Assembly (NCBI GenBank): GCA_021813585.1
Contig: JAKAJV010000047.1
Coordinates: forward strand, 1-43,202
DNA from: Bacteroidota bacterium
GTDB lineage: Bacteria > Bacteroidota > Ignavibacteria > Ignavibacteriales > Ignavibacteriaceae
Direction: 5' to 3'
DNA length: 43,202 nt
Below the pieces are notes generated by a model, which saw nothing but the letters and a program-made list of their open reading frames with translations, searched no databases and was not told the origin of the DNA. Shown piece by piece: positions 12,509 to 39,253 of the stretch (positions are counted from its first letter, which is position 1; each line of letters starts with the position of its first letter). The position numbers and the translations under genes are program-made.

Positions 12509-12589
12509 CCGGCTAGCTAATCCCTGTGTTTTGAATCCGGTTAAGAAAGTACAATTAGGTTATTCGGTCATTTATACGTATGTTTACCC

Positions 12590-12612
12590 ATCCGCAATAA
12601 GTCGGATTTTTT
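12590..12612 (+). promoter_or_regulatory. Hairpin with U tract in the RRM gene leader (terminator or attenuator)
   Basis: ATCCG (12590-12594) pairs with CGGAT (12603-12607), followed by TTTTTT. It ends 27 nt before the GTG start of the RRM gene. It may end the DUF2461 transcript or attenuate the RRM transcript. The RRM gene at 38785-39036 has a comparable hairpin and U-rich run in its leader. Confidence 0.5.
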
Positions 12613-12638
12613 ATTTATTATTTTTTTGGAGTTCTTTA

Positions 12639-12890
12639 GTGAGTACTAAATTATTTGTGGGTTCTCTACCCTGGTCAGTTGATGATAGGCAATTACAAAA
12701 AACTTTTGAAGAGCACGGCACAGTTGTTTCTGCAAAAATAATCAAGGACAGGGATACCGGAAGATCAAGAGGTTTCGGCTTCGTAGAAATGGAGAACCAC
12801 TCCGACGCTAAAAATGCTATTAAGGCATTGAATGATTCGTCGATTAATGGAAGGAATATCGTAGTTAACGAAGCAAAAGCACGTAACTAA
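12639..12890 (+). CDS. RRM-type RNA-binding protein
   Basis: An 83-residue single RNA recognition motif protein, like the small bacterial/cyanobacterial Rbp proteins that bind RNA in the cytoplasm. RNP2 is KLFVGSLPW near the N-terminus and RNP1 is RGFGFVEM; the SAKIIKDRDTGRSRGFGF stretch is classic RRM. The frame is open further upstream, but the GTG at 12639 is chosen: GGAG ends 7 nt before it, and the paralogue at 38785-39036 has exactly the same GTG AGT ACT AAA start and length. A strong terminator follows. Regulation in the leader (cold or autoregulation) is plausible but unproven. Confidence 0.92.
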   Translation: MSTKLFVGSLPWSVDDRQLQKTFEEHGTVVSAKIIKDRDTGRSRGFGFVEMENHSDAKNAIKALNDSSINGRNIVVNEAKARN

Positions 12891-12936
12891 TTAGATATTT
12901 AATCCGGTTCATCCGGATAGGCTTCTATTTCCAGCG

Positions 12937-12960
12937 GGCGTCTTTTAGGACGCCTTTTTT
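12937..12960 (+). terminator. Intrinsic terminator of the RRM gene
   Basis: GGCGTC-TTTTAG-GACGCC is followed by T6, 46 bp after the RRM stop: a perfect 6-bp GC-rich stem and U tract. Confidence 0.88.
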
Positions 12961-38733: not shown

Positions 38734-38757
38734 GAAAGCGCTCGGATGAGCGCTTCG
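38734..38757 (-). terminator. Intrinsic terminator of the second RRM gene
   Basis: AAGCGCTC-GGAT-GAGCGCTT (38736-38755), an 8-bp perfect GC-rich stem, 30 bp after the RRM stop on the minus strand, followed by TTCGTATTTT on that strand. Confidence 0.7.
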
Positions 38758-38784: not shown

Positions 38785-39036
38785 TTAATTCTTCGGTTTT
38801 GCTTCGCTAACAATAATGTTGCGTCCTTTTAACTCCGCACCATTGAGAGCCTGAATCGCGCTACTTGCTTGGGTTTCATTTTCCATTTCAACAAACCCAA
38901 AACCTCTGGATCTACCGGTCTGACGATCGGTAATAACTTTGGCAGAAACAACTGTGCCGTGTGCTTCGAAAGCTGCTCTCAAAGCTTCGTCGTTAACTGC
39001 CCATGGGAGAGAACCCACAAAAAGTTTAGTACTCAC
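38785..39036 (-). CDS. RRM-type RNA-binding protein (paralogue of 12639-12890)
   Basis: An 83-residue single RRM protein, same length as its paralogue and about 65% identical by eye. RNP2 KLFVGSLPW, RNP1 RGFGFVEM, with SAKVITDRQTGRSRGFGF between. GTG start (minus strand, 39034-39036) inside TTAGTGAGTACTAAA, identical to the other copy; GAGG lies 7 nt upstream. It differs mostly in helix 1 (NDEALRAAFEAHG versus DDRQLQKTFEEHG) and the last helix. Small RRM proteins in bacteria bind U- or A-rich RNA; targets here are unknown. Its leader has the same hairpin/U-run design. Confidence 0.92.
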   Translation of the reverse strand: MSTKLFVGSLPWAVNDEALRAAFEAHGTVVSAKVITDRQTGRSRGFGFVEMENETQASSAIQALNGAELKGRNIIVSEAKPKN

Positions 39037-39088
39037 TAACTTACCTCAAAAAAATAATTAATAAAAACAATGCGGCATTTTAAACCGC
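39037..39088 (-). promoter_or_regulatory. Conserved RRM leader: hairpin, U-rich run and SD
   Basis: On the minus strand: GCGG-TTTAAAATG-CCGC (39088-39072), then a U-rich run ATTGTTTTTATTAATTA, then TTTTTTTGAGG and GTG. The paralogue's leader reads hairpin, TTTTTTATTTATTA, TTTTTTTGGAG, GTG. Shared layout and near-identical U-rich sequence suggest post-transcriptional control. Confidence 0.5.
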
Positions 39089-39253
39089 CTTGTAAAATAG
39101 TATTATTATTTAATAAAACAAAATTATTTTTAATTAAAAATCCTCATTTCAGCTTCTTTTAGCGGTTTCGCAGATAAGGGTGGATTACCTCTTCGATGAA
39201 TTTGCAGGGAGACTTTTATTCAATTTTACCAGAATATGACGCAATTAAAATCA

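Follow-up and report, generated by a model that had tools for sequence, protein, structure and literature searches.

A candidate cis-acting leader RNA with a hairpin and a U-rich linker at RRM genes of Ignavibacteriaceae

Two RRM genes in a 43,202-nucleotide stretch of Ignavibacteriaceae DNA (GenBank assembly GCA_021813585.1, contig JAKAJV010000047.1; hereafter the window) are each preceded by a small hairpin and a U-rich linker, and leaders of this kind stand before most related RRM genes. As judged from aligned leaders, the stem of the hairpin is kept by compensatory changes. We propose that hairpin and linker form a cis-acting leader RNA, for which autogenous control by the RRM protein is the most likely role, at about an even chance.

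The two RRM genes of the window and their relatives

The genes, referred to as gene A and gene B, each encode an 83-residue single-RRM protein, and at E 0.001 the genome contains no RRM_1 match besides these two. Gene A is flanked by a DUF2461 gene and an M29-peptidase-like gene. Gene B lies between an MFS gene and a probable radA, which matches KaiC, zinc-ribbon and Lon_C. Since a terminator-like hairpin lies 3' of each RRM gene (Table 1), each is probably transcribed as a short single-gene mRNA. The first-pass annotation had reported the same unusual start in both genes, and the start context TTA-GTG-AGT-ACT-AAA is indeed identical. It had also described a common layout of hairpin, U-rich sequence and Shine-Dalgarno sequence (SD); this layout is present in both genes, but the SDs differ, GGAG in gene A and GAGG in gene B. 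Likewise, a U-rich stretch follows the hairpin in both, but in gene B ATTG intervenes, so that the U run lies 4 bases past the stem.

Table 1. Positions of the two RRM genes and their leader and 3' elements in the window
Feature	Position	Strand	Basis
RRM gene A, 83 aa, GTG start	12639-12890	+	Pfam RRM_1, E 7.4e-24
-33-like element of gene A, TTAGGTTA	12555-12562	+	Fixed distance 5' of the -7 element in aligned A-like leaders
-7-like element of gene A, TATGTTTA, TAnnTTTG type	12579-12586	+	Leader alignment; consensus quoted by PMC7366714
Leader hairpin of gene A, 5-bp stem, 8-nt loop, ATCCG CAATAAGT CGGAT	12590-12607	+	R1 match, 59.4 bits (leader part of model)
U-rich linker of gene A	12608-12627	+	Sequence; U bias against controls
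Shine-Dalgarno sequence of gene A, GGAG	12628-12631	+	Sequence
Terminator-like hairpin 3' of gene A, 8 pairs then T run	12936-12955	+	Terminator scan
RRM gene B, 83 aa, GTG start	38785-39036	-	Pfam RRM_1, E 3.7e-24
-33-like element of gene B, TTTTG	39119-39123	-	G in 26/27 aligned B-like leaders at that place
-7-like element of gene B, TATTTTAC	39092-39099	-	Leader alignment
Leader hairpin of gene B, GCGG/CCGC stem	39072-39088	-	R1 match, 69.1 bits (leader part of model)
U-rich linker of gene B	39048-39071	-	Sequence; U bias against controls
Shine-Dalgarno sequence of gene B, GAGG	39044-39047	-	Sequence
Terminator-like hairpin 3' of gene B, 9 pairs	38735-38756	-	Terminator scan

Relatives were pooled from 13 genomes of the genus, 80 genomes of the family, named public contigs and further fetched regions. 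This gave 134 extracted RRM genes, 105 of which carry the motif KLFVGSLP, and the start was taken as the nearest start codon before the motif. None of the KLFVGSLP-type genes begins with ATG: 94 have GTG and 11 have TTG (non-ATG, 105/105). The 29 genes lacking the motif comprise 18 with ATG, 10 with GTG and one with TTG, the GTG and TTG genes being variants such as MSTKLFIG. As controls, 49 other genes were taken from the loci of the RRM genes as rough open-frame calls, with an SD-based start rule that differs from that of the RRM set; their starts were 41 ATG, 4 GTG and 4 TTG (non-ATG, 8/49). The second-type RRM genes (MN-FVGNL) have ATG in 16/16. Loci L052-L111 were left out of the main set as distant, except L053, L054 and L059, and were treated apart; 53 of these 60 loci could be parsed, L053, L054 and L059 included. 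Among these distant RRM genes, which are mostly from other phyla or classes, 51/53 have ATG, and one of the two GTG genes (L054) comes from an Ignavibacteriaceae record. The number of RRM matches per family genome reaches seven (G035), with some close together (two in L045), and four genomes of one genus (G073-G076) had no RRM match at E 0.001.

Codon 2 is AGT or AGC in 99/99 cases of Ser, and codon 3 is ACT in 72/84 cases of Thr. This bias would fit an element that reaches into the coding region; inertia between Ser codon boxes or a general preference at start sites would fit it equally.

Conservation of the leader and the predicted message start

The frequency of the hairpin was assessed by folding the sequence before the SD. 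A hairpin of -3 kcal/mol or lower was found in 97 of the 103 related distinct leaders, compared with 22% (sd 4%) in dinucleotide shuffles, and the best hairpin averaged -5.9 kcal/mol over these leaders and -1.4 in the shuffles. The presence of a hairpin at a like place in both genes, as had been noted beforehand, is thus more than chance. With a tighter place before the SD, the hairpin was present in 94 of 101 distinct KLFVGSLP-type leaders of the window's family and named relatives and in 2/49 of the control leaders, which belong to other genes of these loci, in line with the expectation of the first-pass annotation that orthologues would keep the leader. The corresponding count was 7/53 for the distant RRM leaders and 1/15 for the ATG-type (second-type) RRM genes of the clade; among the 29 genes without KLFVGSLP, the hairpin test covered the ATG type alone. 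Seven of the 101 KLFVGSLP-type leaders (for example L049, L207 and L209) lack the hairpin. The stem is short (mean -6.1 kcal/mol, 95 leaders), and its spacing to the SD is 20.4 nt (sd 2.3, n=91). In 45 A-type leaders, a set chosen by its stem, the loop contains AATAG in 21/45 and AATA or ATTA in 38/45.

The second-type RRM genes of the genus (MNIFVGNL, ATG) share another upstream sequence, approximately AACATCCCTTCTGTT with an AACA/TGTT inverted repeat, and AAGATTTGTTTCTCCTTTTT further down. It was seen at loci L014, L015, L022, L024 and L027-L031, where a hairpin is mostly absent at the tested place.

Compensatory changes in the hairpins of related leaders had been set beforehand as a test of the proposal, and they were found. 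For the alignment, L122 was left out (its leader reads N) and identical or near-identical leaders were merged (104 to 96); the 96 leaders were aligned with MAFFT blind to structure, and a six-pair stem was compared with shuffles. Cells changed on both sides numbered 94, compared with 36.5 (sd 5.8) in the shuffles, and the covariation score was 0.419, compared with 0.203 (sd 0.018). Paired cells made up 77.5%, and this fell to 46.7% or less when the partner was slid by one to three columns. Two of the five covariation measures were not above the shuffles, namely pairs with two-sided change (6 vs 5.3) and further pair types (20 vs 19.0), and unconstrained RNAalifold recovered three inner pairs only, at -0.45 kcal/mol, the stems and loop lengths being very diverse. 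Within the 45 A-type leaders, which were picked by a CCGG-like stem expression so that the conservation of their stem is partly by choice, covariation was weaker but present (0.252 vs 0.153, sd 0.021). Parsimony on the gene tree gave about 35 two-sided and 43 one-sided stem changes, an estimate from a poor tree of about 80 codons. Between paralogues and genera, the stems range over CCGG, GCGG, GCGTC, CTCAGT, GGGCAT and GTGC.

An independent set was provided by a second family of the order (G337 and G461-G463), which lay outside the alignment and the models. It comprises nine KLFVG-type genes from four genomes, some pairs of which are nearly identical. All eight GTG genes have a hairpin of -3 kcal/mol or lower at the like place, three of them just reaching -3.0, and the stems include GGAC/GTCC, GTGC/GCAC and CCGG/CCGG. 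The ninth gene (L353, KLFVGNLPW) has an ATG start and no hairpin, a single case which suggests that GTG start and hairpin go together.

The linker (-29 to -16) is rich in U (U 0.65, A 0.27, G+C 0.08) relative to the 49 controls (U 0.35, A 0.43, G+C 0.22); further upstream, U is also raised in the RRM set (0.47 vs 0.35). On the other side of the hairpin, promoter-like elements were found. For their count, leaders without a hairpin of -2.5 kcal/mol were left out (103 to 97, 96 of them distinct). Of the 96 hairpin leaders, 90 have a TAnnTT whose end lies 3-9 nt 5' of the stem, compared with 19.6 (sd 4.2, highest 29) in 200 shuffles of the upstream letters, and the full TAnnTTTG is present in 28/96. 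A -33-like box stands at a fixed upstream distance; it is TTTTG in B-like leaders and resembles TTAGGTTA in most A-like ones, where the key columns have T in 48 and G in 39 and 38 of 49 aligned sequences. The TTAGGTTA box, which for gene A lies in the promoter stretch at window 12554-12585, is unusual and in most A-like genes is kept across genera, B-like genes having the usual TTTTG. At the stringency of the longer exact A-type promoter pattern, no promoter regulon was found in the genome, the sole occurrence being that of gene A. Both elements agree with the Bacteroidota -33/-7 promoter, for which PMC7366714 quotes TTTG and TAnnTTTG, so that the mRNA is predicted to start at the stem or a few bases from it, and the hairpin should form the 5' end of the message. 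A transcription start 3' of the hairpins, which had been named as counting against the proposal, is thus not predicted: the predicted promoters place it near the hairpin base (90/96 leaders).

Pairing of the SD and start codon was assessed by leader swaps and by synonymous redraws of the coding region. A hairpin at the start codon (UUAGU-GAGU-ACUAA), though striking in individual sequences, was rejected as a coupled element, since leader swaps among 102 genes gave equal or slightly better values (-0.31, sd 0.06) than the real leaders (-0.24). Sequestration of the SD by codons +19 to +40 was likewise rejected, the pairing being 0.10 for real sequences, 0.12 for leader swaps and 0.16 for synonymous redraws. 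Total SD pairing was 0.667 in the real sequences, in effect equal to the leader swaps (0.664, sd 0.008) and below the synonymous redraws (0.704). Pairing of the SD with the leader alone was in slight excess (0.374 vs 0.335, sd 0.024, in leader swaps), and some masking of the SD is possible. Predicted accessibility was nearly flat from 37 to 10 °C, changing from 0.35 to 0.28 for the SD and from 0.36 to 0.33 for the start. With these values and a total SD pairing close to that of leader swaps, a clear RNA thermometer is not supported, and in the folding predictions nothing speaks for a role in the cold.

Occurrence at other genes and comparison with known systems

To what extent the element is confined to RRM genes was assessed with two models. 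R1 covers the whole leader, the SD and three codons; it was built from RRM leaders, so that its bias towards such genes is in part a product of its construction. R2 covers hairpin and linker without SD or codons, and at about 40 bits it could miss divergent copies. R1 at E <= 1e-3 gave 51 matches in 41 family genomes, every one of them on an RRM gene (assigned by position, with one of them read). R2 at E <= 0.01 gave 14 matches in 39 genomes, 13 of which are RRM leaders; the sole other match (L304, G051:C159) is a stem-loop with neither a U-rich linker nor a nearby open-frame start in the stretch read. The weaker R2 matches L307 and L311 were read and not kept. Twelve weaker R1 places, from matches at E 0.003 to 1, were also read, and one of these is an RRM gene (L293). 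Among the eleven others, L283, L284, L286 and L289 were rejected as members; they have stronger hairpins with U- or AU-rich sequence and are terminator-like. The remaining seven showed no clear hairpin at the right place by eye. L283 (G047:C1:2917600-2919200; R1 E 0.02) combines hairpin, U-rich linker and SD with the ATG of an unrelated gene of 318 aa; this look-alike is perhaps the terminator of the preceding gene. As far as the R1 and R2 searches reach, the element appears to belong to RRM genes. Rfam 15 gave no match over threshold in the window or in 20 related loci, and the sub-threshold matches, far under the gathering scores and to unrelated families, were rejected.

The closest known arrangement is the Chlorobi-RRM motif (RF01697), a structured RNA directly 5' of small RRM genes (Weinberg 2010, PMC2864571), which in the available text of that report (Table 1) is rated as probably RNA, probably cis-regulatory and probably not a riboswitch. 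It resembles the present leader in being the 5' leader of an RRM gene in the same phylum. However, Chlorobi-RRM has two hairpins with well-kept loop sequence and no constant U-rich linker, whereas the leader described here has one hairpin and a U-rich linker; moreover, ATG starts the Chlorobi-RRM genes in 29 of 30 fetched loci (29 being those in which the RRM motif was found), unlike the GTG or TTG here. With strict filters, the RF01697 model exceeded its gathering score (45 bits) in 0/80 family genomes, the genome of the window included, and none of its 22 weak matches in these genomes lies on an RRM gene among those listed. Across 395 sampled genomes of the phylum it exceeded the cut-off in 84, all of one other family (f26); as Chlorobi is the group for which the motif is listed, this family is presumably Chlorobia. 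Identity of the leader with Chlorobi-RRM was therefore rejected, given both the absence of matches over the cut-off and the different architecture. Conserved blocks were also seen by eye before RRM genes of other clades (L052-L111), for example YTCCCGA...GAGGTT in Planctomycetes, ATACGTTTT before a GT-rich end in Desulfovibrio, and GTAGCGACTA...CCATTAC in Chitinophagaceae. These blocks are unlike the hairpin and U-rich element.

Among RRM proteins, RbpB of Bacteroides thetaiotaomicron is likewise a single-RRM protein of the Bacteroidota, and a CLIP site on rbpB mRNA led its authors to point to a potential for autoregulation; the available portion of that paper describes neither a leader hairpin nor a GTG start, and the function studied concerns sRNAs and polysaccharide loci (PMC11697453). 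The cold-induced cyanobacterial RRM proteins Rbp1 and RbpA, in the available parts of PMC9333190 and PMC12475003, are alike as small bacterial RRM proteins only. Among the open-literature papers listed on Ignavibacteria RRM, Chlorobi-RRM and bacterial or cyanobacterial RRM autoregulation, no description of this leader was found, subscription papers lying outside the scope of the search.

Autogenous leaders are known for proteins of translation, such as E. coli rpsT with a UUG start and infC with an AUU start. The likeness lies in an RNA-binding protein, its own message, initiation and a non-AUG start, autogenous control being a proposal for the RRM genes; protein family, RNA and mechanism are unrelated, and it is a resemblance only. 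By sequence, the nearest solved RRMs include Sex-lethal, Hu proteins, TIA-1, PUF60 and hnRNP A1. The first four are known as U-rich binders, so that loop and U-rich strand would both be possible binding sites.

Possible roles of the leader

In the proposed mechanism, each gene would yield a short mRNA with a small hairpin at its 5' end; about 20 nt of U-rich linker would then lead to the ribosome binding site and the GTG start. RRM protein in excess would bind the loop, the U-rich strand or both, beside the ribosome binding site, and thereby make its own message less translated or shorter-lived, while the weak GTG or TTG start would keep initiation limiting. Autogenous control is preferred because the element stands at the genes of one RRM family, at the predicted start of the message and adjacent to the ribosome site, and because linker and spacing are kept, loops are often shared and the start is weak. 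That the confident model matches precede RRM genes, together with the reported CLIP site of RbpB on its own mRNA (PMC11697453, as far as the available text goes), makes autoregulation plausible. Chlorobi-RRM leaders are a further precedent. Against it stands the fact that a stabilising hairpin at the 5' end would yield much of the same pattern. Such a hairpin, protecting the message from 5'-dependent decay while the linker keeps the ribosome site open, without any binding of the RRM protein, is the main rival, and we consider it rather unlikely. A predicted start near the hairpin base, a stem free to change in sequence while pairing holds, and a linker nearly free of G and C (0.08) all agree with it. 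However, the arrangement is rare both at other genes of the same loci (2/49) and at ATG-type RRM genes (1/15), and loop letters, the bias of U over A and the stem-to-SD spacing are kept too, none of which a mere clamp needs.

The other explanations have less in their favour. The first-pass annotation had suggested that hairpin and U run might be an attenuator, for instance in the cold; they would then form an intrinsic terminator that transcription passes when needed. Both window leaders pass a simple terminator scan, but TTTT starts within 3 nt of the stem in 47/95 leaders only; the other 48 lack a close U run, and the mean stem is -6.1 kcal/mol. Moreover, the stems of the A and B leaders have 5 pairs, compared with the 8 and 9 of the terminator-like hairpins 3' of the genes, and a hairpin that begins at the predicted start would leave no RNA before it to serve as antiterminator. 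This idea is thus weakened and appears improbable. We doubt to a similar degree that the inverted repeat, lying just 3' of the promoter at the predicted start site, is a repressor site in DNA. TCCGG-N7-CCGGA is common to many A-type leaders across genera, as an operator would be, but this repeat is not shared across leader types, and stems differ widely between paralogues and genera, which speaks against a fixed site. G-U cells exceed A-C cells both over the alignment (53 to 19) and inside Watson-Crick cores (23 to 2), and the linker favours U over A in a strand-biased manner, as would be the case if the signal acted in RNA and not in DNA; just outside the cores, G-U and A-C are nearly balanced (23 to 19), which agrees with an operator. 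Finally, that the hairpin is the terminator of the upstream gene and unrelated to the RRM gene is scarcely credible. In the window the upstream genes share the strand of the RRM genes, as they do in 73 of the 96 leaders with an identified nearest open frame, and terminator-like look-alikes exist before other genes (L283 and L289); nevertheless, the hairpin is kept in 19/23 leaders with an open frame on the opposite strand upstream, and a promoter-like element lies in between.

If autogenous control by the RRM protein applies, the leaders might, tentatively, represent an RNA family not described before, whose hairpin loop at the 5' end and U-rich tether would let bacterial RRM proteins read the message that encodes them. 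Leader-based self-control may even have evolved repeatedly at bacterial RRM genes, since a related group has a different structured leader, Chlorobi-RRM, before genes of this family, and further clades show distinct conserved blocks. Little is known about RNA recognition by bacterial RRM proteins or about the control of their amounts. The compact leader, about 50 nt long and without an Rfam 15 match, is present in several paralogues per genome with different loops and so offers natural candidate targets for binding tests, and the leaders of the paralogues could reveal the sequence preferred by each RRM protein.
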